Assembly: GCA_015521565.1 (NCBI GenBank)
Contig: WANX01000132.1
Span: 1 to 50,301, forward strand
Origin: Candidatus Hydrothermarchaeota archaeon
Lineage (GTDB): Archaea > Hydrothermarchaeota > Hydrothermarchaeia > Hydrothermarchaeales > BMS3B
DNA length: 50,301 nt
Reading direction: 5' to 3'
The number at the start of each line of letters is the position of its first letter. The first letter of the stretch is position 1. The notes under the pieces are model-generated. The model did no database searches, was not told the DNA's origin, and was given only the letters and a program-made list of their open reading frames with translations. This document shows positions 2,732-25,702 of this stretch, in pieces. The position numbers and the translations under genes are program-made.

Positions 2732-3916
2732 CTATGGCAGAGCCCGCCTTATTATCCCCAGCATCTCCACAGCAAAGGCTGTTACAGAGGCGAGCAGGAG
2801 TGCAGAGCCAAGAAGAGAAGCAGCACCGGCGCCCAGGTACATACCTGAAGCGAGCAGCAGTACACCGGCATTGAAAATGTAGAAAATCCATCTGGAGCGG
2901 CTGGCTGAGAAGAGCTCCTTGAAGGAGGCGGGTGCCCTATCCCTCTCCCTGGGCAGAATTCTGGTCCATGTGAGGGTGGGTATTACATGGTAGAGTCCAC
3001 CTATTGCTGTCTGAACCACAAAGCCCAGAGCAGCAAGATGAGCGTGGAGAAGCGTAAGGTCCCTGCCCGGATACAGCGTCCCCAATATTCCAAGTATCAG
3101 CACCATGAGCAGATAACCCAGCGCTGCAAGAAAGAACCTGGCCTCCACCGGCTCCGACTTCACAGGCACCCGCGAAGGCGCTGTATAGCTCTTCACCATG
3201 TCGTATGTGAAAAGAAGTGCCGCAGCGAGCAGGATTAGCCCCCCCGGAAGAACCAGCTGCCTGAAGCCTGAGAAGCCCAGCACCATGATACCGGCGGCAA
3301 GGAGTGTCCCGTAAAATGTGTAGTCCAGCCAGCGGCGGTTGTAGATGTCCTTAACAACCAGCATGGGCAGCATCCAGGACATGGCGCCGAAAATTATCAG
3401 TGTCACACCCCCCACCAGGGCAAGGTGCGCGTGAGAGGCGCGGTAGCTGTATAGCACGGGGTTTAAGGCTATTAAAAAACCCAGGGTAGCGCCCAGGCTG
3501 AGAAGGACGCTGGAAGCTGCATAAAACTTGAAGGCATAGTTTTCTCCCCTGCGTTCTGCCAGAGTTGCCAGGATGTTGTAGGTGAACAGGTAGAAGCCCA
3601 GGAGCATCAGAAGCGCCCCGATGGAGGCTGCAGCAGCACTCGATGGATAGGTTATGGAGAAGAGTAGAAGTCCGGGATTAAATAGCCAGAAGCTTGCCTC
3701 TGCGGCACGCCTGCTGTGCAGCTCTGTTCCTGAGAGAGTTGGAACCTGCTGGTACATTGTGGCAATTATAACCCCGCATACAAATCCCACCAGGGCAAGG
3801 TGCACATGCACCGGTGTGGCGACAGGAAATCCCAGCAGCCCGGCTATACCCAGGAGTATCCCCAGGACAAGGTACACCAGCGCTGCTGCCAGAAAGCGCA
3901 GGACGATGGCGGACAT
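2732..3916 (-). CDS. Polytopic heme-copper oxidase subunit I-like membrane protein
   Basis: About 12 TM segments and three HxHLALxG...P repeats. Start chosen at MSAIVLRF, just after the upstream small gene ends. Confidence 0.6.
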   Translation of the reverse strand: MSAIVLRFLAAALVYLVLGILLGIAGLLGFPVATPVHVHLALVGFVCGVIIATMYQQVPTLSGTELHSRRAAEASFWLFNPGLLLFSITYPSSAAAASIGALLMLLGFYLFTYNILATLAERRGENYAFKFYAASSVLLSLGATLGFLIALNPVLYSYRASHAHLALVGGVTLIIFGAMSWMLPMLVVKDIYNRRWLDYTFYGTLLAAGIMVLGFSGFRQLVLPGGLILLAAALLFTYDMVKSYTAPSRVPVKSEPVEARFFLAALGYLLMVLILGILGTLYPGRDLTLLHAHLAALGFVVQTAIGGLYHVIPTLTWTRILPRERDRAPASFKELFSASRSRWIFYIFNAGVLLLASGMYLGAGAASLLGSALLLASVTAFAVEMLGIIRRALP

Positions 3917-3921
3917 ATCAA

Positions 3922-4041
3922 CTAACCGTGGATGAGCATTGGCAGACACCGGGTGCATATGTAGTGCTTGTCCTGCCTGTGGTAGTACTTAAGAAGGGGG
4001 ACCTCATCCTCACTTCGCTGGCAGTTTTCACATCTCTTCAT
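3922..4041 (-). CDS. 39-aa double CxxC zinc-binding-like small protein
   Basis: MKRCENCQRSEDEVPLLKYYHRQDKHYICTRCLPMLIHG. It lies between the HAO and HCO-like genes on the same strand. Confidence 0.5.
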   Translation of the reverse strand: MKRCENCQRSEDEVPLLKYYHRQDKHYICTRCLPMLIHG

Positions 4042-4112: not shown

Positions 4113-5600
4113 TCAGGATCTCCTCCTTCTCCTGAGCATCGCATATACCACAAGAGGCACTGCAGCCAGTGCTGCCACAGATGTGGGACCGCACACGCCC
4201 TTCTGCTTCTCCAGCTTTGCGACGCGCTCCTCAAGCTCCTTCTTCTCCCGCTCCATCTGCAGCCACTCTTCCATCATGTTCAGCTTGTCCATCAGTGTAT
4301 CTACAGCACCGTTCCACTGAGTCCAGTCAGGGCCCATCATACTGGCACCCATCCTCCATCTGCGGCCATCGTGGTGCCAGATGTAGTAGTACATTATCTC
4401 TGGAATCTCATCGATCGGGTTGGACTTGTCGATGAGACCCTCCTCGTAGGCGGTATTCAGGAGCTTTTCGGCGTAGTCGTAGACGGTGTTGTAGTCGCTC
4501 ACAACCTTGTCGAAGCTCTCGAAGTAGCCATCCACCCAGTCGCTGGCGTGGCACACTCTGCACACCTTCTTCATCTCTGCTCTGCCCTTCTTTGCCTGCT
4601 CCTCATCGGGCTTCTGCTCTCCCAGTGGCACCTTGCTGGCATCGTCCCACTGAGGCGTGGACCTCTTTGGCTGCAGCTCCCAGTACAGCCTCGCCCCAAC
4701 GTCGTGGGTGCTCTCAACCACACCGCCGAAGCCGGACATGTGGCAGGTGGCGCAGGTGGGTGCGGCTATGTCCTCCGGTCCCCACTGGCCAGGTGGTACG
4801 TCCCAGTTCCAGCTGTCGCCGCTGCTCTCATATATGTTTCCGTGCTTGCTCTCCTTGTATATCTCTATCTGCGGATGGTCTGGACCCACGTGGCACTGGC
4901 CGCAGGTCTCCGGCTTGCGCGCCTCTGCTATGCTGAACCTGTGTCTGGTGTGACAGGCGGTGCAGGAGCCCATGCTACCGTCGGGATTAATCCTGCCTAT
5001 GCCGTTGTTGGGCCACCCGTCCACCAGCTTCCCGTCCCTGGCAATCACATAGCTGCCGTGGCACTGCATGCAGCCCAGCACCTGGTTCTCCTGATTGTAC
5101 TTCTCATCCTCCAGCAGGCCGATGCGCTTCAGGGCTCCGCTGTCTGGATAGAGGGGTGTGAGCCGTCCCCTTATGAAGTCCCTGGGATTGTTCTCCATGG
5201 CAGTCTCCTGCTTCAGCGGGTCCTTGCCCTGCTTGACCATCTCCTGGTACCATGGCTTCAGCGGACCTATGAAAGCCGCCCAGGCGTGCTTGCTCCTTGA
5301 GAACTCCTCCACCTGCTTGGGGTGGCAGCTCTCGCAGTACCTGGGCGAAACCACGGCTGTCACCCTGTAGCCAAAGTGGTCAAACCCCGAGGGGTCGTCC
5401 TCCTTTGCCTGGTGGCACACGTAGCACTTTACACCCACCTTGCTGTGCTTGCTCTCCTCCCACTGTTTTACTATACCAGGCGTTACCGTATCGTGACAGC
5501 TCAGGCATGGAGCACCCGGTTCTTTGAATTCCTGTGCCTTAACTGTGCTGAGCAACATCGCTGCAGCTATTGCAAAAATTAAGAGATGCTTTAACCTCAT
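4113..5600 (-). CDS. Octaheme c-type cytochrome, hydroxylamine oxidoreductase (HAO)-like, C-terminally anchored
   Basis: Signal peptide; eight CxxCH motifs (CLSCH, CYVCH, CESCH, CMQCH, CTACH, CGQCH, CATCH, CRVCH); C-terminal CGP...TM...RRRRR tail. Confidence 0.85.
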   Translation of the reverse strand: MRLKHLLIFAIAAAMLLSTVKAQEFKEPGAPCLSCHDTVTPGIVKQWEESKHSKVGVKCYVCHQAKEDDPSGFDHFGYRVTAVVSPRYCESCHPKQVEEFSRSKHAWAAFIGPLKPWYQEMVKQGKDPLKQETAMENNPRDFIRGRLTPLYPDSGALKRIGLLEDEKYNQENQVLGCMQCHGSYVIARDGKLVDGWPNNGIGRINPDGSMGSCTACHTRHRFSIAEARKPETCGQCHVGPDHPQIEIYKESKHGNIYESSGDSWNWDVPPGQWGPEDIAAPTCATCHMSGFGGVVESTHDVGARLYWELQPKRSTPQWDDASKVPLGEQKPDEEQAKKGRAEMKKVCRVCHASDWVDGYFESFDKVVSDYNTVYDYAEKLLNTAYEEGLIDKSNPIDEIPEIMYYYIWHHDGRRWRMGASMMGPDWTQWNGAVDTLMDKLNMMEEWLQMEREKKELEERVAKLEKQKGVCGPTSVAALAAVPLVVYAMLRRRRRS

Positions 5601-5692: not shown

Positions 5693-6793
5693 TTAGATGG
5701 ATACATGTGCATAGCGCCTCAATTCCGGCAGGGGTGAAGAAGCAGCGTACACTGTTCCTGCGCAGGTCTCAACATCCTCATGCCGGTGCACCAGCCTCAC
5801 GGCAGGTTCCCACCCATCACCGCGGCACGTGAGAAGTGCACCGTCTATGAATCCGGAATTTAAAGAAAACTTAATCAGCGCTGTAACAGCACCACCGTCC
5901 TGTCCCGCAGAATCCGCGGTGGAGCGCGCGCCCACTATTCGCCTGAACCTCCCCAGGTACTCCGCCCTCTGTCCGTCCCGGAACAGCGTGTCCTCGAGCA
6001 GTCTTAAGGGAAGCGCTGTTCTGGTGCATGCGGCGTAGCAGAGCTCACAACCCGCCGGGCACCTCCCATTAAGCCTGGGAAGTCCGTTTATCATCTGTAT
6101 CTGTCCGCACACCGCTGCACATGCGCCACAGGCATCGCACACACCCGTGGCCACTATCTCGCGCCACAGCTCCGCGTACCCCTTTCCGCTGGCTAACCGC
6201 AGCACCTGCTGCATGTCCTCCAGATTCCGGGTAGAGTAGTGGGGTACCTCCATCCCCTGCTCAATTCTGGCTTCAATTCTCCTGGCATTCTTCTCCACCT
6301 TGGACCCCGCAACCCGGCTCAGCTCCTCCACGCCATCCTCCAGCTCTATCAGCTCGACAGCACCCTCATCTACCGCCTCATTAAGCAGGATTTCTCCGGT
6401 GCGTGTTCTAACAATCAGGGTGCTCCATCCAGGAGGCGAGCCGGCGCTTCCGGCACTGATATCGGAAAGCTCTGAGGTGAAGTCCACACACAGCCTGCAT
6501 GCCATCCTCGTGTACCTCCTCAGCTCCCTCAGCGGCAGCACCATCTGCATCCTCTTCATTCTCAGTTTCACCACGCCTCCGGAAATCTCCATTCTTGTAA
6601 CCTCAGCAGCGCTTACGCCGTGCTTCTCCAGAAAACCACGCATGCAGGCGTAACTCCAGTTGCCAGTGCAGAACAGCCCAAGCACCAGCTCCACCCTCCC
6701 TATCCACTCTCTCCCGGTGGCTGCCTGCAACGCCTGCAGCTTTCGCAGCCCCTGCACCTGGCATGGAGTTCCCACAAATCCGAGCCTTCTCAC
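5693..6793 (-). CDS. F420 hydrogenase/dehydrogenase beta-subunit (FrhB/FpoF)-like protein with permuted domain order
   Basis: FrhB_C-like VGTPCQVQGLRKL...CRLCVDFTSELSDISAGSAGSPPGWSTLIVRT at the N-terminus, then CDACGACAAVC and CPAGCELCYAAC, then FrhB_N-like QDGGAVTALIKFSLNSGFIDGALL at the C-terminus. GTG start overlaps the napD stop (GTGA). Confidence 0.8.
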   Translation of the reverse strand: MRRLGFVGTPCQVQGLRKLQALQAATGREWIGRVELVLGLFCTGNWSYACMRGFLEKHGVSAAEVTRMEISGGVVKLRMKRMQMVLPLRELRRYTRMACRLCVDFTSELSDISAGSAGSPPGWSTLIVRTRTGEILLNEAVDEGAVELIELEDGVEELSRVAGSKVEKNARRIEARIEQGMEVPHYSTRNLEDMQQVLRLASGKGYAELWREIVATGVCDACGACAAVCGQIQMINGLPRLNGRCPAGCELCYAACTRTALPLRLLEDTLFRDGQRAEYLGRFRRIVGARSTADSAGQDGGAVTALIKFSLNSGFIDGALLTCRGDGWEPAVRLVHRHEDVETCAGTVYAASSPLPELRRYAHVSI

Positions 6794-7035
6794 TCCACCT
6801 CGTCCTCCACGTTCAGATACACCAGCTGGAAGTCCACAACATCCTCCCAGTTTTCTATCCTCTCAGACAGTTTTTTCAGCTCCTTTGTGGTTCTGCCCTC
6901 CATAACCACTGCTATTCCCTTTGCACCCCTGCCCTTGACCTCCACCCCCGGAAGACTCCGGAGGCTCCTCTCAACCTCCTCCTCCCTGCCCGGCACGGGC
7001 ACAACAACTGCTCCGGATATCGGCAAGTGCTTCAC
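6790..7035 (-). CDS. napD: NapD-like chaperone for NapA
   Basis: ISGAVVVPVPGREEEVERSLRSLPGVEVKGRGAKGIAVVMEGRT... matches NapD architecture. GTG start overlaps the napH stop. Confidence 0.7.
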   Translation of the reverse strand: MKHLPISGAVVVPVPGREEEVERSLRSLPGVEVKGRGAKGIAVVMEGRTTKELKKLSERIENWEDVVDFQLVYLNVEDEVE

Positions 7036-7874
7036 CTCCTGATTCTGTAATACAGGGCGCCGGAGGGACATGCATCCCTGCACAGCCCACAATTATCACA
7101 GTCTTTATCGTTGTAATCTTTATCTATACCCAGCTCAACAGGGCGCAGACCGTAGGGGCATACGCGATTGCATTCACCACAGAAGATGCATCTCTCCACC
7201 TTTTTGCCAATTCGCAGCAAACGCTTTGCCCCCAGCGCTGAGAGGAATCCTCCCGCAGGGCACAGAGAGCGGCACCACACCCGCCTCGCTGCCAGCGTGT
7301 CTACCGTTAGCACACCCGCAAGCAGGAGCAGCCCACCGGTGCTCAGGGTACCGTACGTCAGGAGGTAGAAGAGCTCCCTGCCCACAACATGGGGCAGATC
7401 AAAGGCGGAAACAACCGGAGTTGCGAAGAGCAGCGTGAGCAGCAGAGAGAAAACAAGCAGCTGGTAGCGGTGGTCTCCCGCTATGAGCACCAGTCTCCTG
7501 CGCATCCACAGACGCCCCCTCAGCCGCTGGGTGAGCTCCAGGAGAAACCCCGCCGGGCACAGCCAGGAGCAGAATACCCGGCCCATCAGAAGGGTAACCA
7601 GCAGCGGTAAAAGAGCACTGAGAATCAGCGGCAGGTACAAAACCCTGGATGCCAGTACCGCTTCAAGCGCTGCCAGCGGATGGGTGATGCTCACTCCATA
7701 GAAGCTGAAGCTCCATGTATCACCCCATACCCTGGACACCCTCGGGGTTGGAAGCTCGCCCATAGCTATTCTTGAGGGTGCCCATTCTATGGGATTCTGA
7801 GAGTACATGGGCACGGCTATGAGCACCCCGAGCACCAGTAGCTGGAAAATCCGCCTCGCATGCTCTGCCTTCAT
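7032..7874 (-). CDS. napH: NapH-like quinol dehydrogenase membrane ferredoxin protein
   Basis: Four TM segments; FCSWLCPAGFLLEL and WCRSLCPAGGFLSALG motifs; C-terminal CIFCGECNRVCP and CDNCGLCRDACP. Confidence 0.85.
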   Translation of the reverse strand: MKAEHARRIFQLLVLGVLIAVPMYSQNPIEWAPSRIAMGELPTPRVSRVWGDTWSFSFYGVSITHPLAALEAVLASRVLYLPLILSALLPLLVTLLMGRVFCSWLCPAGFLLELTQRLRGRLWMRRRLVLIAGDHRYQLLVFSLLLTLLFATPVVSAFDLPHVVGRELFYLLTYGTLSTGGLLLLAGVLTVDTLAARRVWCRSLCPAGGFLSALGAKRLLRIGKKVERCIFCGECNRVCPYGLRPVELGIDKDYNDKDCDNCGLCRDACPSGALYYRIRR

Positions 7875-7875
7875 A

Positions 7876-8616
7876 CTACAGCCTCTTAACCACCCTAACT
7901 GCAGGCAGCTCAACCCCGGGTCCGGCTCTCCCTATCACATTCCTCACCATGGCTGCATACCTCTCCTCGAAGTAGGTGAGCTTTCTTCCCGGCTCAAGGG
8001 TGGCGCTGGCTATCTTCTCATTTACAGGACACACGTAGTTGCACATCCCGCAGCCAACGCAGTGCTTCTCGTTGACGTAGGGCCGTATCCCCACCGCACC
8101 CTCAATAACCTCGCTGGGGGGATAGTCCAGCATGGCATCATCCCGAAGGGGACAGTTGTAGTAGCATTCACCGCAGGAGTCGTACTGCCAGGCGAGGCAG
8201 ATATCACGGTTGAGCACAGAAACACCCATCTTCAGCTCATCCGGCATAGAGAGCAACGTTTCTCTGGTATTTCTTATTCTCATCAGTGCGCCCGTTGGAC
8301 ATGCTTCCCCGCAGAGCAGATACTCGCCCAGGGGCTCGTCTTTGCCCTCGCCGGTGCGCTTAAGACACAGATAGCACGGAGTCTGCAAGGGGTCTATGTA
8401 GGGTGTGGCAAACAGAGCCCCTGCAGCTATGTCGAAGAACCTTATTGAATCGTAGGGGCACGCCTCACCGCACCTACCACAGCGTATGCAGCGGGCAAGA
8501 AAGTCACGGGTGGCTCCCGGAGGGCGAATCACCTGCCTGCGGACGCCTCCTCCAATACCGGCGAAGCCGAGCAGAAACAGGCTCTTCATGAAGTTCCTGC
8601 GGCTCAGCCTCACCAT
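7876..8616 (-). CDS. napG: NapG-like periplasmic ferredoxin (Tat signal)
   Basis: SRRNFMKSLFLLG Tat motif and multiple 4Fe-4S motifs (CIRCGRCGEACP, CVGCGMCNYVCP). Confidence 0.85.
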   Translation of the reverse strand: MVRLSRRNFMKSLFLLGFAGIGGGVRRQVIRPPGATRDFLARCIRCGRCGEACPYDSIRFFDIAAGALFATPYIDPLQTPCYLCLKRTGEGKDEPLGEYLLCGEACPTGALMRIRNTRETLLSMPDELKMGVSVLNRDICLAWQYDSCGECYYNCPLRDDAMLDYPPSEVIEGAVGIRPYVNEKHCVGCGMCNYVCPVNEKIASATLEPGRKLTYFEERYAAMVRNVIGRAGPGVELPAVRVVKRL

Positions 8617-9041
8617 CCACCCTCCCTTTCAATCTCAACCACCGCCACCTCATAGTGTCTGCCCTTAATCTGATACGGAACCACCACAATACCCCTTACC
8701 CTCACCTCAGCACCCTGCATGGGCATTGTCCCTCTGGTCACAATCCATATATCACCTGTGCCGTCGCTCAGGAGATATGGCTGCTCATCCACAAACTCAA
8801 AGGCAAGTCCGGGTGTCACAGTACCCCTGAGAACCACCTCCTTTCCCTCATACGCCTCCGGATTTTCCAGTATATCTCCTATCCTGAGCTCATCGCCGCT
8901 CTGCTGCAGAATACCTGAAGTAGCCCCCTCGCCCGAAGCATCTGCCCCCTCCACATCTCCGACCATGGCCACCTCCTTCTCCACACAGCCAGGGAGGAGC
9001 AAAAGCATCAGCAGCAGCACAGCAGACCGCATCTCATCCAC
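8610..9041 (-). CDS. OB-fold-like lipoprotein encoded in the nap cluster
   Basis: Lipobox LLLLPGC; DILENPEAYEGKEVVLRGTVTPG...GAEVRVRGIV OB-fold-like strands. Confidence 0.6.
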   Translation of the reverse strand: MDEMRSAVLLLMLLLLPGCVEKEVAMVGDVEGADASGEGATSGILQQSGDELRIGDILENPEAYEGKEVVLRGTVTPGLAFEFVDEQPYLLSDGTGDIWIVTRGTMPMQGAEVRVRGIVVVPYQIKGRHYEVAVVEIEREGGW

Positions 9042-9142: not shown

Positions 9143-11620
9143 CTATGCCCTGGCCACCTTTATCTTGCACACCTTGTAGTCTGGCTCCGCAGCCTTTGAC
9201 CAGCTCTCGGGCACGTCTATGGTCAGGTCGTTTATCAGCCTGTTCTCATCAAACCAGGGCACGAACACCATACCTGGCTGAGCGCGTTCTGTAACCCAGG
9301 CGGGCAGAACTATGCTTCCTCGCGGGGAAATAAGCTTTATCTTTTCCCCGCTCTTAACTCCGAGCTTTCTGGCATCGCTGGGATGAATCTCCACGTACGC
9401 AGCCGGGTTGAGCTCCCGCAGCAGGCGCACCCGCATGGTCATCGTACCCGTATGCCAGTGCTCTATGACCCTGCCCGTGTTAAGCACGAAGGGGTAGCTC
9501 TCGTCGGGCATCTCGTAGTCCAGGGTGGGTGTCAGGGCGCGAATCACAGCCTTGTCCTTGGTGTTCTTGAGCTTGTGCTCCCCGTAGTAGTTGATGGGAC
9601 CGGGGTAGCCCAGCTCCTCCATGTGCTGGTCGTAGAGGGTCACATACCCCGTGGCGTACCTCTTCTTATCCCTTCCGAAGACCCTGATGGCGTAATCGCG
9701 GGAGATGTAGCGCTTGTTGCTTCCCCGGTTTTCAAACTCGGTGCTGGGACACGGCCACTGCACCCCGCCCGCATGGGCCTTGAGCTTCTCGTAGGTGGCA
9801 CCGTACAGGTCAACGTCTCTGCCCCTGGTGAGCACCCTGTACTCGTTCCAGGCTGCCTCTTCGGGAGTCATCTCGCCCCTCTTGACCCGGGGGTCGTCGT
9901 AGAATCCGAGACCGTACACCTCAATGGTGTCCAGTATCTTCAGGGGCTCTTTCCTGTCCCTTATCGCATACCTGACCTTCCTGCCCAGCTTCTCGGATAT
10001 CCTCCTGGCAACCTCGTTTATCTGCCAGAAGTCAGGTCTGGCATCTTCCGGTGGCTCCACCAGCTTCTCGATAAACTGACTCCTCCTGTCGGTCTGTCCC
10101 ATCACGCCCTCCTTCTCCACCCACATGGCGCTGGGAAGCACCACCGTCGCCACCTCGGTGGTGCGGTTCCAGTAAATGTCGCTCACCACAGTGAAGGCCT
10201 TCTTCATAGCCTCCGCATACCTGTCGCAGTTGGGCAGGCTCTGGGCGGGGTTGGTGGTGTTTATCCATATCGCCTTTATGTCACCCTTCTCCAGACGCAT
10301 GAACATGTCCACCGCTGGCCCTGTGGGCTTGGTGGGCATCTGCTCAAACGGCACACCCCACACCTCCGCCACCTCCCTGCGGTGCTGGGGATTCACCAGC
10401 GCCCTGTGCCCCGGCAGGATGTGGGTTAAGCCGCCCTGCTCCCTCGTACCACCGCAGGCGTTGGGCTGCCCCGTGAGGCTCAGGGAGTCGCATCCGGGTT
10501 TGCCTATCTTGCCGGTGAGCAGGTGCAGGTTGTGAACCTGGCAGTTGAGCTCCACACCCTGGGTGCGCTGATTCAGCCCCATGGTCCACATGCTCAGCGC
10601 CGTGTACCCCCTGCGTCCGAACCACCTGGCTGCGAGGCGTATATCTTCGGCATCCACGCCTGTGATGTCCTCCACCTTCTCGGGGGCGTAGTCCTGCAGG
10701 AACTCCCTGAAGGCGTCAAGGTCCATCTCCTCCCCCTTGGGTCCAAGCCCGACTCTGAAGGTGCAGTACTTCAGGTGCTCGTAGTCAACCATGTCCTCTT
10801 CTATTATCACGTACGCCATTGCGTTCAGCAGGTACATGTCGGTGCCTGGCTTGAACTTCAGGTGGAGGTCAGCATACCTCGCCGTTGGCGTGGTTCTGGG
10901 GTCTGCCACAATCACCCTTACCCTATCCGGGTAGGCGCTCTTCCTGTCTATGACCCTGCGGAAGAGCATTGGGTGCTGCTCCGCCATGTTTGAGCCTATG
11001 ATGAAGATGGTGTCGGCGCTGTCAATGTCGTCGTAGCTTCCTGCAGGCTCGTCGGCGCCGAAGGTGTTCAGATACCCGCCCACCGCCGAAGCCATGCACA
11101 GCCTGGGGTTGCCCTCAACGTTTGCGGTGCCAATTATCCCCTTGAAGAGCTTGTTCGCAGCGTACGCCTCCTGGGTGGTGTTCTGCCCCGAGCCGTACCA
11201 GGCGACGCTGTCGGGACCGTACTCCTCTATGTACCTGACAAAGGTGTCAGCGATTAAATCAAGTGCCTCCTCCCAGCTTACCTCCTTATAGGTGCCGTCC
11301 TCCTGCCTGACCAGGGGCCTGGTAAGGCGCTCCTTTCCGCCCCCGCCGTACATGATGTGGGGCAGTGAATACCCCTTCATACACAGCCTGCCGAAGTTTA
11401 TGGGTGAGTTTGCATCGCCCTTCACGGCAACAACTTTACCATCACGAACACCCACAAGTACTGTGCATCCGGTACCGCAGAACCTGCACTGTGCCCGTCC
11501 AAAGGTGATTCCCCCGTCTCCCTGGGCTGCCATTGCGGGAGCACTCATACCGGCAGCAAGCATCGCTGCTGTGGCAGCAGATGTCTTTATAAATTCACGT
11601 CTGCTCATGCTTATTTCCAT
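9143..11620 (-). CDS. napA: Periplasmic nitrate reductase catalytic subunit NapA-like (Tat-exported Mo-bis-MGD enzyme)
   Basis: SRREFIKTSAATAAML Tat signal; CRFCGTGCTVLVGVRDGKVVAVKGDANSPINFGRLCMKGYSLPHIMYG; MGLNQRTQGVELNCQVHNLHLLTGKIGKPGCDSLSLTGQPNACGGTREQGGL and NAC are strongly NapA-like. Confidence 0.9.
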   Translation of the reverse strand: MEISMSRREFIKTSAATAAMLAAGMSAPAMAAQGDGGITFGRAQCRFCGTGCTVLVGVRDGKVVAVKGDANSPINFGRLCMKGYSLPHIMYGGGGKERLTRPLVRQEDGTYKEVSWEEALDLIADTFVRYIEEYGPDSVAWYGSGQNTTQEAYAANKLFKGIIGTANVEGNPRLCMASAVGGYLNTFGADEPAGSYDDIDSADTIFIIGSNMAEQHPMLFRRVIDRKSAYPDRVRVIVADPRTTPTARYADLHLKFKPGTDMYLLNAMAYVIIEEDMVDYEHLKYCTFRVGLGPKGEEMDLDAFREFLQDYAPEKVEDITGVDAEDIRLAARWFGRRGYTALSMWTMGLNQRTQGVELNCQVHNLHLLTGKIGKPGCDSLSLTGQPNACGGTREQGGLTHILPGHRALVNPQHRREVAEVWGVPFEQMPTKPTGPAVDMFMRLEKGDIKAIWINTTNPAQSLPNCDRYAEAMKKAFTVVSDIYWNRTTEVATVVLPSAMWVEKEGVMGQTDRRSQFIEKLVEPPEDARPDFWQINEVARRISEKLGRKVRYAIRDRKEPLKILDTIEVYGLGFYDDPRVKRGEMTPEEAAWNEYRVLTRGRDVDLYGATYEKLKAHAGGVQWPCPSTEFENRGSNKRYISRDYAIRVFGRDKKRYATGYVTLYDQHMEELGYPGPINYYGEHKLKNTKDKAVIRALTPTLDYEMPDESYPFVLNTGRVIEHWHTGTMTMRVRLLRELNPAAYVEIHPSDARKLGVKSGEKIKLISPRGSIVLPAWVTERAQPGMVFVPWFDENRLINDLTIDVPESWSKAAEPDYKVCKIKVARA

Positions 11621-20430: not shown

Positions 20431-20607
20431 TCAACCGGCAGTATCTAACTCTGGATTTTTTTCTTTCCCATCCTCCTCTTCCCTCATGCCGCGCTTAAAC
20501 TCCACCCTGGCTCTGCCCAGGGAGCGTGCCAGCTCCGGCAGCCTGCTACCGCCGAAGAGCAGCAGGGCTATGGCGAGGATCACAAGAAGCTCATTCTGCC
20601 CCAGCAT
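20431..20607 (-). CDS. tatA: TatA family translocase component (second copy)
   Basis: Manual translation MLGQNELLVILAIALLLFGGSRLPELARSLGRARVEFKRGMREEEDGKEKNPELDTAG. Confidence 0.85.
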   Translation of the reverse strand: MLGQNELLVILAIALLLFGGSRLPELARSLGRARVEFKRGMREEEDGKEKNPELDTAG

Positions 20608-21154
20608 TGAGCCTCACCTCCTCTACCTTTTCGTAGTAGCCATCGCCTGCGCAGGGCCTGCACACGCCGTCGTGCATAAACCCCTGAGGCTGGAGCTCTC
20701 CGCAGGAGGGGCACCTCGCTATTGGCGTGCGTATTGGCTTCAGGTCCAGGGTCAGCCTTATCCTCTCCACCCTGAAGTAACCAGCGTCCATCTCCAGAAA
20801 GAGCCTGGCGAGAGAATCCCTCTCCTCATGGCTGAGCTTAGCCCTGCGGTACATGAAGGTGTTCAAAGCCTCGCTCTGCGCAGCGGCCTCGCTCTTAAGC
20901 GCCACGCGGTATCCCTCGCCCGAGGGATAGCGTGCTATTGCTAAGGCGAGCTTGCCCAGGTCGTAGATTATGAGATTGCCATTGCCAGGCGTTGTGCCGG
21001 CGACCGCCATGAGAGCATCTGGGAGGCAGACCCTGGTCTCAGCCACACCTGTCAAACCCTTTCCGGGCTTTGGGTTGCCCAGCTTTTGCATGGCAATGCT
21101 CGCCATGCGCACACCCAGCGCTATCCCCGGCGCCAGGTGGCCGTGAATCGCCAC
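20591..21154 (-). CDS. FmdE-family protein with C-terminal zinc ribbon (copy 1)
   Basis: HGHLAPGIALGVRMA...GNGNLIIYDLGKLAL; C-terminal CPSCGELQ...CRPCAGDGYY. True start uncertain and may lie slightly upstream. Confidence 0.8.
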   Translation of the reverse strand: MAIHGHLAPGIALGVRMASIAMQKLGNPKPGKGLTGVAETRVCLPDALMAVAGTTPGNGNLIIYDLGKLALAIARYPSGEGYRVALKSEAAAQSEALNTFMYRRAKLSHEERDSLARLFLEMDAGYFRVERIRLTLDLKPIRTPIARCPSCGELQPQGFMHDGVCRPCAGDGYYEKVEEVRLNAGAE

Positions 21155-21180
21155 CGCGCGCTCCAGCGCCTCCTCAAGCT

Positions 21181-21879
21181 TTACGCCTCTTCCTTCTCCG
21201 CTAATTCCAGAACCTCCTTCAGCTGCTCCGCATCCAGGCTGAGGTAGCCTCTCGTCAGCTTTGCCACGCCGCGGTAAAAGTCGCTCTCAGCCTCCTGGAG
21301 CACAACATCGCAGAACCTGGGGACCCAGGCCAAGATGTGCTCCTCCAGGAAGCTCTTCTGCACCTCGAGCAGGCGCAGCGCCTCTTTTCTGTCGCCCTTC
21401 CTCCAGCTCTCCGCCTCGCGGTAGCTCGCCAGCGCAAGGAATTTAAGCTCTGTGCCTATGTAGTCCGGCGGCCCGCCGTACTCCTCGTTCAGCGCAAACC
21501 CTGCCTTGAGGTACTTGCTCATCACCTTTTGCGTCGCCTCGCCCATCACCCTGTCCTCGCCCAGGTAAACCGACTCGTAGGGCGGCGGAGGGGAGTAGCC
21601 CTTCTTGATGCCCCTGAAGAGCCTCGTGAACTCAACCGCCAGCTCTTCGGTCAGCTTTTCCAGCTCCCTCTCCCTGTTCAGCTTAAGAAACTGCTCCAGG
21701 AGCTCCGCACCTTCCCTCAGCTCTCCCCCGGCAAGCTGCGCCAGCGCCCTGAGCTCCTTCTGAAAGCCCTCACTCAGCATCTTTGCCACAAACTCCTCTT
21801 TTGGCACGGAGTTGTAGAAGCTGCTCAGGAAGGCGTATATCGTACTCCTCCTCAGCGCTATCTCGGCGAACATGCTCAC
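21181..21879 (-). CDS. TorD/DmsD-like molybdoenzyme chaperone
   Basis: RSTIYAFLSSFYNSVPKEEFVAKML...FTRLFRGIKKGYSPPPPYESVYLGEDRVMGE...DYIGTELKFLALA is typical of the TorD family. Confidence 0.9.
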   Translation of the reverse strand: MSMFAEIALRRSTIYAFLSSFYNSVPKEEFVAKMLSEGFQKELRALAQLAGGELREGAELLEQFLKLNRERELEKLTEELAVEFTRLFRGIKKGYSPPPPYESVYLGEDRVMGEATQKVMSKYLKAGFALNEEYGGPPDYIGTELKFLALASYREAESWRKGDRKEALRLLEVQKSFLEEHILAWVPRFCDVVLQEAESDFYRGVAKLTRGYLSLDAEQLKEVLELAEKEEA

Positions 21880-21902
21880 ACCTTAAAAAATTAAAGGGGT
21901 GC

Positions 21903-22322
21903 TCAGGGATTCACCGCACCCTCTACTCCTGCGTTCATGTACAGCTCTCTCGCAGGTCCGTCCTGCTTGTGGCATCCGAGGCAAATAGCCCTGTCCACCA
22001 CGCCAGGAGCACCCCGCACAGGAAGCTTGTACTTCCGCTGGTACAGGAAGTCGTCCGCATAGCCGGAGATGTGGCAGTAGCTGCACTTAAGCCCGAGAAC
22101 CTCCGCATGGATGTTGTGCCACCTCTTGCCAAGCTCCATGCCGTACTCTTCGCCCACGTCTATCTCGCCGCTTCTTATCTTCTCCGCAGTCTCCCAGAGG
22201 TTCACGGGCACCTCCTTCTCAACTTCCCTGACCACCGTCTCCTGCTTCTGGGCGCAGGCTGCGAAGAGCAGCAGCATTGCGATCGCAAGGAGAGCCGCAA
22301 CTTTAAACCTCATCTTTATCAC
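21903..22322 (-). CDS. Diheme c-type cytochrome lipoprotein
   Basis: Lipobox LLLFAAC; CSYCH and CLGCH heme motifs. Confidence 0.85.
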   Translation of the reverse strand: MIKMRFKVAALLAIAMLLLFAACAQKQETVVREVEKEVPVNLWETAEKIRSGEIDVGEEYGMELGKRWHNIHAEVLGLKCSYCHISGYADDFLYQRKYKLPVRGAPGVVDRAICLGCHKQDGPARELYMNAGVEGAVNP

Positions 22323-22323
22323 C

Positions 22324-22983
22324 TCACACCAGGTAGTACACCTGCGGCCTCGTGCCGTACTCCTTCTTGAGCTGAATAGCTCGCCTGCTCGCTATGAGCC
22401 TTGAAACCTCGCTGCTGGGGTCGTCGAGGTCGCCGAAGTACCTCGCTCCTGCGGGGCACACGGGTACGCACGCAGGTGAGGTGTCGTAGTCACTACCCGG
22501 CTTCTTGCCCTCCTTCAACGCCTTCTCGATGCGGTGCCAGCACAGGGTGCACTTCTCGGCAACGCCCGGCTTCTTCCTGTGCAGGGGGTGCCTCGCCTCA
22601 GCTGGCAGAGCCTCGTAGGGCGTCTTCTCGCCGTTGGGGTAGAGGGTCTTCTCCTTGTCTATGAAGTGGATTACTCCGTAGGGACAGGCGGCGATGCAGT
22701 AGCGGTAGCCCCTGCACTTTTCATAGTCTATGAGCACCACGCCGTACTCGTTCTTGCTTATCGCCTTCGCGGGGCACGCCTTAACACAGGGCGGATTCTC
22801 GCAGTGCTGGCAGTTCATTGGCACAAAGATTCTGCGAACGCTGGGATACTTTCCCTGCTCGTACTCGAGCACAAAGTTCCAGTAGTTCCCCGGCTGGACC
22901 ATGTTCTCAACTTTGCACGCGGCGACGCAGCTCCTGCAGCCTATGCACTTCGCCAGGTCTATAACCAGGCCGTATCTCACCAT
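22324..22983 (-). CDS. PsrB/DmsB-like 4x[4Fe-4S] electron-transfer subunit
   Basis: CIGCRSCVAAC, CQHCENPPCVKACP, CRGYRYCIAACPYG, CTLCWHRIEKA. Confidence 0.9.
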   Translation of the reverse strand: MVRYGLVIDLAKCIGCRSCVAACKVENMVQPGNYWNFVLEYEQGKYPSVRRIFVPMNCQHCENPPCVKACPAKAISKNEYGVVLIDYEKCRGYRYCIAACPYGVIHFIDKEKTLYPNGEKTPYEALPAEARHPLHRKKPGVAEKCTLCWHRIEKALKEGKKPGSDYDTSPACVPVCPAGARYFGDLDDPSSEVSRLIASRRAIQLKKEYGTRPQVYYLV

Positions 22984-22996
22984 CTACACCACCTCC

Positions 22997-25702
22997 TCAC
23001 GCCCTGTACACCTTAACCTTGGTGTCCAGGAAGCTGTTGTGCCCTGAAATCATGTCAGGGTGCAGCTCCAGCACCAGGTTTATCGCTGTCCCCTTCCTGG
23101 CATACTCCGGAAAACTCCTTGCAAATCTCCCGTAGTGGTAGCTCACCGCGACGGTGTCCGGGCGAATACCCTCGCTGAGCTTTGCCCTGGCTTTGACCTT
23201 GCCTATCCTGCTCTCTATCCACACCTCGTCGCCGTCCTTGATTCCAAGCTCCTTCGCCTTGGCTGGATTTATGAGCACGTAGTTGTAGCTGGAGTCGTGG
23301 GCAACCTCGTTTAGCACCGGGTTTAGAGCATCTGGATTGGCCTGGTTCCTGTACATGCGCTTGTAGGTTATCAGGTACAGCGGGTACTCCTTGGCCTTCC
23401 TGTGGGGTGTTGGCAATGCATGCTCCTTCCTTGGGAAGGGCGAGAGCTTTATCTCAATGAGCTTCTCAAGCTCGTCGCCACTCGCCTCGTACCACTCTTC
23501 GAAGACCCTCCTGACCCTGCTCTCCCTGCTCATTATCTCCAGCACTTTTTCGCGAGTATGCACCAGCTGCTCCGCATAGAAGTGCATCTTGGGCCTGCCC
23601 TTGCCTCTGAACTTCTCCGCGTCTTTAAGATACCTGTGCTCCACGTCCACAGTCTTCGCAACCAGCCCGTGCTTAAGCGCGTAGTCGAAGGGCTTCTTAG
23701 TTTTCTTCTCCCAGAGTATCTTGACAGAGAGCCTGCTCAGCTCCTCCGCGTCCTTCTTGCCCGCAAGGCTGCCGCCGTTCTTTGCCTTGAGCTCCTGGTA
23801 CCTGCTCCTGAGCGGGTTGAACTCGCCCTTCTTGAACTTCCACTTCTTGTGCATTCCCTCAATGTACCTGTCGAGTATGCCCGCCTTGTCTGCGAGTATC
23901 ATCAGGATATCGAAGTCCTGGTGGGGCAGGTTGTAGGCGTTGACTATGGGCTGGCGTATTGCGCTGTGGCTCGTGCCCGGGGTCCAGCGGGTTGGGGAGA
24001 AGTGCCAGCACTCCAGGTAGCTCTTGTTCGGCAGCACAAGGTCGCTCATCTGTGTCTGCTCGCTCAGCACGATGTCTATTGCTATCTGCTTCACCTTCTT
24101 TGCGCCCTCTATCTGCTTCTCCACGTCCGAGGTGGAGAACAGCCTGTTGGTGGCATAAACTATCTGAAGCTTTGGCTTGTAGGGCAGGCCGTACTTCTCG
24201 GGCTCCAGGTAGGTGAGGTGGGGCTGCTGCGCCACATTGTGCGTCCCATGCGGGTAGAAGACGCTCTCTGAGAGGTCCACCTTACTGGGCGGGTACTCGC
24301 ACTTGCCGGGCTTCATGTTCTTGTAGTCCGGATTGGCCTTGTGCAGCATGAGCCCGCCCACGGCGTCGAAGTTTCCTACCAGCATCTGCACCATGAGCGC
24401 CGCTCGCCAGTTCTGGGTGCCGTACTCTCTGGCGCTCATCCCGCGGAAGGTGTGAATAGCTACAGGACGGTAGCGGAGCTTTTTGCCCTCAAGCTCTATT
24501 GTGGAGCCTATCCTGGCGTGCTCTCCGAACTCCTTTGCCACTCTCATTATCGTCTCCGCGGGTATGCCAGTAATCTCCTCAGCCTCGCTCAGGTCAACGT
24601 TCTGGAACAGGTAGTCCTTGAAGACCCTGAAGGAGGTGCGGTACTCCTTTCCATCGACGGTAACCCTGCCGTCCAGCAGTATCTCCTCCGCCTCGTCGTA
24701 GGGCACCGCCTTCTGGGCATTGCTGTCCCACACCAGGGGGTTGCCGTCCTCGTCCCTGAGGAACTTCCCATCCTCGCCCACAAGATACACCGCGTCGGTG
24801 TACTCCTTCAGGAACTCCTCGTCCACATAGCCTTGAGCTATGAGCTCCCTCGCCATCGCAAGCAGGAAGACCACATCTGAGCCCGGCTTTATGGGTATCC
24901 ACTCCGTAGCCTTGGCAGCGAGGTTGCTCAGCCTGGGCTCAACCACCACCAGCTTCATCCCGTCCTCGACGACGCGCTTCATGCAGACCCTGTCCAGCCA
25001 TCGCGCCCACTGCTCAGCCTCTGTGAAGTTCGCCCCCATGTTAAGGTAGTACTCCGTGTACTCCAGGTCAGGCAGGAAGCCGTGCCCGCCCCAGGTTAGC
25101 TCATCCGCCACGTGGCGCGCGGCCTCGCAGACAGTGGTTCTGTGAACGTTGTTGGGCGAGCCTATGGCCTCGTTTATAAAGGCCTTGAGGAACTTGTCCT
25201 GCACCAGGTACTTGCCGTGCCCCCACAGGAAGGTTATTGAACGCGGGTCGTAGTCCATCGCCTCTTTTATCATCCTTGCAGCCTCTTCGAAGGCCTCCTC
25301 CCAGCTTATCTCCTTCCACTTGGGGTCTGCGTCGGGACTCTTGTCAGGGTTGGTGCGCTTGAGCGGCGCCTTTATCCTGTAGGGGTTGTAAACGTCGAAG
25401 AGACCGCTCTGCCCCTTGGGACACAGGTGCCCCACGTTGTAGGGGCTTGCGGGATTGCCGTAGATGGCGCGTATAACGCCGTTTACCCTGCGCACCCTTA
25501 TTCCGCAGAAGTTTACGCACATTACGTCGGTGCTGGGTATGAGCACGTCTTCGCTTACTGCAGTGGCGACCTGCTTTACACTGCCCTGAGCCCTGCTCGC
25601 TTCGGCAGCTACGCTGCCCAGCGAAACCACCTGCGAGCCAAGAGCAGCCATTCCTGCTATAAGGCTCGACTTTTTTAAAAATTCCCTCCTCGAAAGATTC
25701 AT
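22997..25702 (-). CDS. Tat-exported DMSO reductase family molybdopterin oxidoreductase alpha subunit (Arr/Psr/Ttr-like, substrate unknown)
   Basis: LSRREFLKKSSLIAGMAALG Tat signal; DVMCVNFCGIRVRRVNGVIRAIYGNPASPYNVGHLCPKG; DPKWKEISWEEAFEEAARMI; C-terminal molydopterin-binding domain. Confidence 0.85.
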   Translation of the reverse strand: MNLSRREFLKKSSLIAGMAALGSQVVSLGSVAAEASRAQGSVKQVATAVSEDVLIPSTDVMCVNFCGIRVRRVNGVIRAIYGNPASPYNVGHLCPKGQSGLFDVYNPYRIKAPLKRTNPDKSPDADPKWKEISWEEAFEEAARMIKEAMDYDPRSITFLWGHGKYLVQDKFLKAFINEAIGSPNNVHRTTVCEAARHVADELTWGGHGFLPDLEYTEYYLNMGANFTEAEQWARWLDRVCMKRVVEDGMKLVVVEPRLSNLAAKATEWIPIKPGSDVVFLLAMARELIAQGYVDEEFLKEYTDAVYLVGEDGKFLRDEDGNPLVWDSNAQKAVPYDEAEEILLDGRVTVDGKEYRTSFRVFKDYLFQNVDLSEAEEITGIPAETIMRVAKEFGEHARIGSTIELEGKKLRYRPVAIHTFRGMSAREYGTQNWRAALMVQMLVGNFDAVGGLMLHKANPDYKNMKPGKCEYPPSKVDLSESVFYPHGTHNVAQQPHLTYLEPEKYGLPYKPKLQIVYATNRLFSTSDVEKQIEGAKKVKQIAIDIVLSEQTQMSDLVLPNKSYLECWHFSPTRWTPGTSHSAIRQPIVNAYNLPHQDFDILMILADKAGILDRYIEGMHKKWKFKKGEFNPLRSRYQELKAKNGGSLAGKKDAEELSRLSVKILWEKKTKKPFDYALKHGLVAKTVDVEHRYLKDAEKFRGKGRPKMHFYAEQLVHTREKVLEIMSRESRVRRVFEEWYEASGDELEKLIEIKLSPFPRKEHALPTPHRKAKEYPLYLITYKRMYRNQANPDALNPVLNEVAHDSSYNYVLINPAKAKELGIKDGDEVWIESRIGKVKARAKLSEGIRPDTVAVSYHYGRFARSFPEYARKGTAINLVLELHPDMISGHNSFLDTKVKVYRA

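Follow-up and report, generated by a model that had tools for sequence, protein, structure and literature searches.

A gene at positions 5693..6793 on the minus strand of the window (i.e., the whole 50,301-nt stretch of DNA analyzed here), directly adjoining napD in a nap operon, encodes a 366-aa FrhB/FpoF-like flavoprotein, hereafter the nap-type protein, which represents a complete FpoF-like chain (ferredoxin segment, N domain, C domain; Fd-N-C) circularly permuted to C-Fd-N. This protein is one of an old permuted subfamily found with POR, Mtd, glutamate synthase, and Nap as partner enzymes. We give about even chances to its being the cytoplasmic FAD/[4Fe-4S] electron-entry subunit of Nap, most likely carrying electrons from F420H2 to NapH.

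The gene call is based on the ORF, the order of the Pfam domains, and orthologs in five genomes. The gene reads from 6793 to 5693 and starts with GTG, overlapping the napD stop codon by 4 nt (6790–6793). Reading back from this GTG to the preceding stop lengthens the frame by only some 23 codons, which overlap napD (open frame of 389 aa), and the alignment of orthologs begins at this same start; the overlap, the short upstream frame, and the ortholog alignment thus make the GTG start credible, in agreement with an earlier note on this DNA, made from the letters alone, that had taken this N-terminus to be real. An N-terminal domain missed upstream was considered and ruled out, as the upstream frame merely overlaps napD.

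The motifs quoted in the earlier note, which had proposed a clean circular permutation to be checked by the order of PF04422 and PF04432, are all present in the ORF. In the FrhB/FdhB superfamily the N domain precedes the C domain; here, the FrhB_FdhB_C domain (PF04432; aa 2–153, 6335..6790, minus strand; E = 1.7e-41, 142 bits versus a cut-off of 23.3), also identified by matches to chains of solved structures, comes before the FrhB_FdhB_N domain with its QDGG flavin motif (PF04422; aa 288–357, 5723..5932, minus strand; E = 2.6e-15, 56.7 bits versus a cut-off of 22), also supported by sequence comparison. Between them lie, on the same strand, the joined old termini, consisting of the long C-terminal helix (aa 154–178) and a linker (aa 179–203; together 6185..6334, from junction mapping on 8rja_E and DSSP of the model), and a ferredoxin-type segment recognized from its sequence (about aa 204–262, 6008..6184; 2x[4Fe-4S]) with two CxxCxxCxxxC-like motifs (C219, C222, C225, C229 and C245, C249, C252, C256). 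A phmmer search against solved structures matched residues 2–177 to residues 178–352 of 8rja_E and residues 204–359 to residues 3–170 of the same chain, and close relatives among the solved structures presented the same swapped two-stretch pattern. It follows from the swapped stretches that about 26 residues link the old ends, and that the new ends lie where the normal-order chain has an 8-residue gap between the two matches, within the loop that connects its N domain to its C domain. An AlphaFold2 model built on an alignment of permuted proteins presented a single compact fold (pLDDT 91.6, pTM 0.92), so that the order of the domains, the mapped junction, and this confident model of one fold all agree on the permutation. 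Foldseek matches to this model included FrhB, CODH zeta, FwdI, and Fsr; they span about 170–200 residues, with deviations of 1.4–3.7 Å for most of them, which is about half of the chain and what would be expected of a sequential aligner given a permuted order.

Upstream of the permuted gene, the nap gene run (all on the minus strand) includes napD (6790..7035; PF03927), encoding 81 aa if read from the GTG at 7035 (the ORF as listed begins further upstream, at 7092, and the same 81-aa start is found in genome G002); a napH-like gene for a membrane ferredoxin-type subunit with C-terminal 2[4Fe-4S] (7032..7913; TIGR02163, below the curated cut-off); a napG-like gene for a ferredoxin-type protein (7876..8616; PRK09476, below the curated cut-off); a gene kept in the operon that encodes a lipoprotein-like 143-aa protein (8610..9041; ORF and synteny), labeled "OB" merely for working purposes; and a napA-like gene for an 825-aa catalytic subunit with a TAT signal (9143..11620), for which NapA models score best, yet below their curated cut-off. 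No napF, napB, or napC was seen in this gene run. The gene next downstream of the permuted frhB, wherever the contig reaches, encodes an octaheme cytochrome with eight CxxCH motifs (4113..5600, minus strand; PF13447, synteny in G001–G003). This c-type cytochrome shows weak similarity to hydrazine dehydrogenase/HAO and 86–90% identity across the genus; encoded next to nap, it is a candidate nitrite or hydroxylamine enzyme. Nap genes of Hydrothermarchaeota were already reported in PMC6775978. The window comes from a MAG of this phylum, from an uncultured, heat-loving archaeon close to Ca. Pyrohabitans.

Colinear nap-type orthologs follow napA-OB-napG-napH-napD in five of five genomes of the genus (Ca. 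Pyrohabitans, Hydrothermarchaeota), where the earlier note had suggested looking for proteins of the same order beside nap genes; those in the four other genomes occupy the same place with 52–60% identity and, being full-length and colinear, are therefore permuted as well. The order regulator-napA-lipoprotein-like-napG-napH-napD-permuted FrhB-octaheme cytochrome-COX1-like is shared by G000–G003, and the contig of G004 ends inside the permuted frhB gene. Of 41 genomes, the five that carry napH are also the five that carry the nap-type gene; in the remaining 36, this search gave neither a napH match nor a nap-type copy. The nap-type gene is clearly under purifying selection, with dN/dS of 0.28 (G000/G003) and 0.17 (G001/G002); neighboring genes in the G000/G003 pair presented dN/dS of 0.05–0.16, i.e., the nap-type gene is the fastest-evolving of the run.

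By alignment, C11, C42, C99, and C102 correspond to C104, C134, C192, and C195 of FrhB, named as core [4Fe-4S] cluster ligands in PMC3591093, and these four cysteines are kept in all 29 aligned rows, bar one unread residue. The nap-type copies also keep all eight ferredoxin cysteines, for a total of twelve cluster cysteines, together with QDGG (QNGG in one copy), the FAD-loop tyrosine Y349, and the GSxGSP loop (S116). The retained cluster ligands, QDGG, and Y349 therefore make electron transfer via FAD and three [4Fe-4S] clusters likely. K75-Y76 of the FrhB FAD loop corresponds to V348-Y349; K75 is replaced in the POR, Mtd, and nap types and kept in the glutamate synthase type. The FrhB loop 163-IGKGK, whose K165 and K167 were suggested in PMC3591093 to contact the F420 phosphate, reads ISGGV here and ISGDR or ISGYE in nap-type orthologs (K165 to G; K167 to V, R, or E). 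Most POR- and Mtd-type proteins have IKKGK or a similar sequence in this loop, and some of the proposed F420 lysines are absent from the glutamate synthase type as well. Since the proposed phosphate lysines are missing, F420 use by the nap copy remains a proposal.

The function we propose would begin with a two-electron donor, most likely F420H2, reducing an FAD predicted to be bound by the nap-type protein. Electrons would then pass singly from FAD to the C-domain cluster and on to the two ferredoxin clusters, and from these to the cytoplasmic [4Fe-4S] domain of NapH, the proposed acceptor and putative docking site; NapH would pass them to NapG and NapA, directly or via quinone, on a path that would run downhill in potential. 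In bacterial Nap, the C-terminal 2[4Fe-4S] domain of NapH is on the cytoplasmic side, as is NapD, and the same arrangement is expected here; the nap-type protein has no evident signal peptide in its sequence. F420 is expected in this organism because its genome encodes the F420 ligase CofE and Mtd; it also encodes a CODH-linked FrhB. Coupling of partner oxidation to F420 reduction has been shown for the FrhB-type subunits of CODH and Fwd in PMC11493965. The earlier note's suggestion that F420H2 or ferredoxin electrons are fed into nitrate reduction thus seems plausible, given the fidelity to the operon and the conserved cluster ligands. Points against an F420-entry role include the missing lysines, the change of K75 to V, and faster evolution than that of the neighboring genes, and a search for biochemical data on any nap-type member found none.

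These points bear on several other readings. The nap-type protein could be an F420-independent module in which FAD and the clusters remain but F420 is no longer bound, and which connects NapH to ferredoxin or a different donor; we regard this as possible if somewhat unlikely; the lysines of the IGKGK loop are gone in all nap-type copies, and HCAR, a plant FrhB-family enzyme that works with ferredoxin, is among the Foldseek matches (E of about 1e-3). However, the residues of the flavin/F420 face (QDGG, Y349, and the S116 loop) are kept, and some of these lysines are gone also from the glutamate synthase type, whose enzyme is taken to depend on F420. We consider it unlikely that the protein is a NapF-like accessory, i.e., a cytoplasmic Fe-S flavoprotein that, with NapD, matures the NapA precursor or keeps it reduced and carries no respiratory electrons. 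While the absence of napF from the gene run and the 4-nt overlap with napD, which suggests that napD and the permuted frhB are translated together, would fit such a role, the close relatives sit with catalytic enzymes (POR and glutamate synthase), which points to electron transfer, and NapF-type maturation needs neither FAD nor the FrhB fold.

Fast evolution within the run would also suit a declining passenger, that is, a permuted copy that arose by duplication, stayed in the nap operon, and does little there; a dN/dS well below 1, twelve retained cluster cysteines, and presence in all five nap operons argue against this reading and leave it improbable. An assembly error joining two partial frhB genes, which the earlier note had named among the things that would overturn the permutation, has a negligible probability and was ruled out: the same order occurs in independent genomes and contigs at 52–61% identity, two more permuted paralogs are found within the same genome, and nothing was found in its favor.

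Among known systems, the nap-type protein has close parallels in FpoF/FqoF, the FrhB-type subunit of CODH (ACDS zeta, 8riu), and FwdI (8rja), which have the same three parts (a 2[4Fe-4S] ferredoxin, FrhB N, and FrhB C), the same cluster ligands, and partner-specific electron coupling, but present the order Fd-N-C rather than C-Fd-N. The family models for FpoF/FqoF (NF040616, 112.6 versus 475 bits; PRK09326, 114.9 versus 444) and for FrhB of hydrogenase (TIGR03289, 181.6 versus 331.5 bits) are matched below their thresholds. FrhB of the F420-reducing hydrogenase (3zfs, 4omf) shares the N and C domains and the four core ligands but is of normal order and without a ferredoxin segment, and its K75, K165, and K167 are replaced in the nap-type protein. 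FdhB, the formate dehydrogenase beta subunit, has the same cyclic order cut elsewhere (N-C-Fd, according to PMC3448663) and weak sequence similarity to the nap-type protein; with Fd-N-C in FpoF and Fsr and C-Fd-N here, all three rotations of one cyclic order exist. The FrhB-like subunit of the putative F420-dependent glutamate synthase of Methanobacteriales has the same C-Fd-N order, but a different partner, a retained K75, and about 28–33% identity to the nap-type protein. The bacterial NapGH quinol dehydrogenase with NapF has napG-, napH-, napD-, and napA-like genes in common with the operon described here, which has a permuted FrhB-like gene where napF, napB, and napC were not seen.

The nap-type protein matches other permuted proteins colinearly over its full length, and full-length colinear homologs were found in more than 20 genomes overall. 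Its own genome encodes five FrhB-like proteins, including three permuted ones (nap, POR, and Mtd types) and two of normal order, one beside CODH alpha and one beside methyltransferase-like genes. The POR-type gene of this genome lies directly before the 2-oxoacid:ferredoxin oxidoreductase gamma, alpha, and beta genes; this type occurs throughout the phylum, where permuted FrhB-porG-porD-porA-porB is the usual gene order, and was found once in an Archaeoglobaceae MAG. In POR-type proteins of the Pyrohabitans family (L012 6906–8069, L022, L066, L067, and L071), four of the eight ferredoxin cysteines are missing and, with them, probably one cluster; the positions of C219, C222, C225, and C256 (nap numbering) are kept in all rows. 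The Mtd-type protein of the same genome (487 aa, with a C-terminal extension) is encoded directly before mtd; the loci with a permuted FrhB of this kind, its C-terminal extension roughly 90 aa long, directly before mtd are L011 (5351–6814 and 4533–5354), L035, L063, and L064. Mtd has no Fe-S cluster, and a pair of permuted FrhB and Mtd may make F420H2 from ferredoxin beside its user. A POR-like permuted protein also precedes mtd at L052. A lone divergent permuted protein (L055, 5255–6385, in G012; 29% identity to the POR type), encoded beside glycosyltransferase-like genes, stands outside the four operon types.

The fourth permuted type is encoded amid genes for glutamate synthase (glutaminase-type GATase, GXGXG, and GltB-like). 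Near-full-length matches to a profile of permuted proteins were found in 128 of 154 Methanobacteriota genomes, counted as genomes with a best E < 1e-100; all 30 fetched loci are permuted at the ORF level, and 19 of these have a glutamate synthase gene within a short 1.5-kb flank. From this context, the Methanobacteriota loci appear to encode the MTH193/MTBMA_c06440-type subunit, given as subunit 4 of the putative F420-dependent glutamate synthase in PMC3087415. Among 397 Halobacteriota genomes, with four candidates scored per genome, a full-length profile match was found only in the Archaeoglobaceae one. FrhB6 of ANME-1, an FrhB paralog in a PFOR cluster like the POR-type paralogs here, is described without mention of a permuted order in the available text of PMC9012536. 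Searches for permuted proteins in two smaller groups found none. Full-length profile matches in another archaeal phylum were taken up as candidate permuted proteins and rejected, as in these nine genomes the profile reads through a stop across two adjacent, head-to-tail FrhB-like genes of normal order.

The earlier note had also suggested that the permutation possibly placed the termini for docking on NapG/NapH. As a cause of the permutation, such docking found no support: permuted proteins of this order also accompany POR, Mtd, and glutamate synthase, which makes an origin of the permutation for the sake of Nap highly improbable, and a nap-specific permutation was ruled out by the permuted paralogs in the same genome and by the glutamate synthase type. 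In a 68-row tree built on the concatenated N and C domains, the glutamate synthase type forms one group (support 100/100), the POR, Mtd, and nap types form a second (83/82) that includes one long-branch normal-order row, and one lone permuted row falls outside both. The best tree has four label changes between permuted and normal order, and a single permuted clade is not rejected (p-AU 0.369); the sequences would thus fit one, two, or three origins of the permuted order, between which the tree does not distinguish. Tandem duplication followed by truncation, as proposed earlier, is a plausible route judging from the sequences: fusion of a head-to-tail pair of normal-order genes and trimming of both ends would yield C-Fd-N. 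The five head-to-tail loci examined (L244 901–3537, L245, L246, L247, and L248), with the two genes in frame and 12–39 nt apart (the in-frame state being partly an artefact of a search that read a single frame), may picture the step before permutation; we make no claim of ancestry. It is possible, though less likely than not, that a permutation made once, long ago, gave rise to a separate class of archaeal F420-coupling subunits since fitted to at least four unrelated enzymes, and that in Ca. Pyrohabitans it joins the cytoplasmic F420H2 pool to a periplasmic-type nitrate reductase, an F420H2:nitrate respiratory module not known before.

That FrhB paralogs occur next to genes for PFOR, CODH, and glutamate synthase is already known from PMC9012536, PMC3448663, and PMC3087415. 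In the literature searched, which covered the accessible text of non-subscription titles, no description was found of the permuted order or of an FrhB-like gene in a nap operon; the permuted order was apparently not described before, and priority is not firmly claimed. A natural circular permutation of a three-cluster flavoprotein that is kept across phyla and four operon types is unusual, and the three rotations represented by FpoF, FdhB, and the nap-type protein open the placement of termini relative to partner docking to study. Annotation is affected as well: most Methanobacteriales have a permuted glutamate synthase subunit, yet it is named plain FrhB. If the nap copy does use F420H2, it would represent a new electron input for nitrate respiration.

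Other redox genes were observed in these genomes. On contig C18 of G000 (L242, 2908–11604), a membrane operon resembling that of complex I/Fqo has, by appearance, the genes N, M, L, K, J, I, H, and CD; there is no FqoF-type gene on this contig. In the window, positions 2732–3958 encode a COX1-like membrane protein (408 aa, short for a full oxidase subunit I) that is kept beside nap in the genus, and positions 20591–25702 contain a second TAT-type molybdopterin oxidoreductase operon, encoding a 901-aa protein, an Fe-S subunit, and, by appearance, a TorD-like chaperone.
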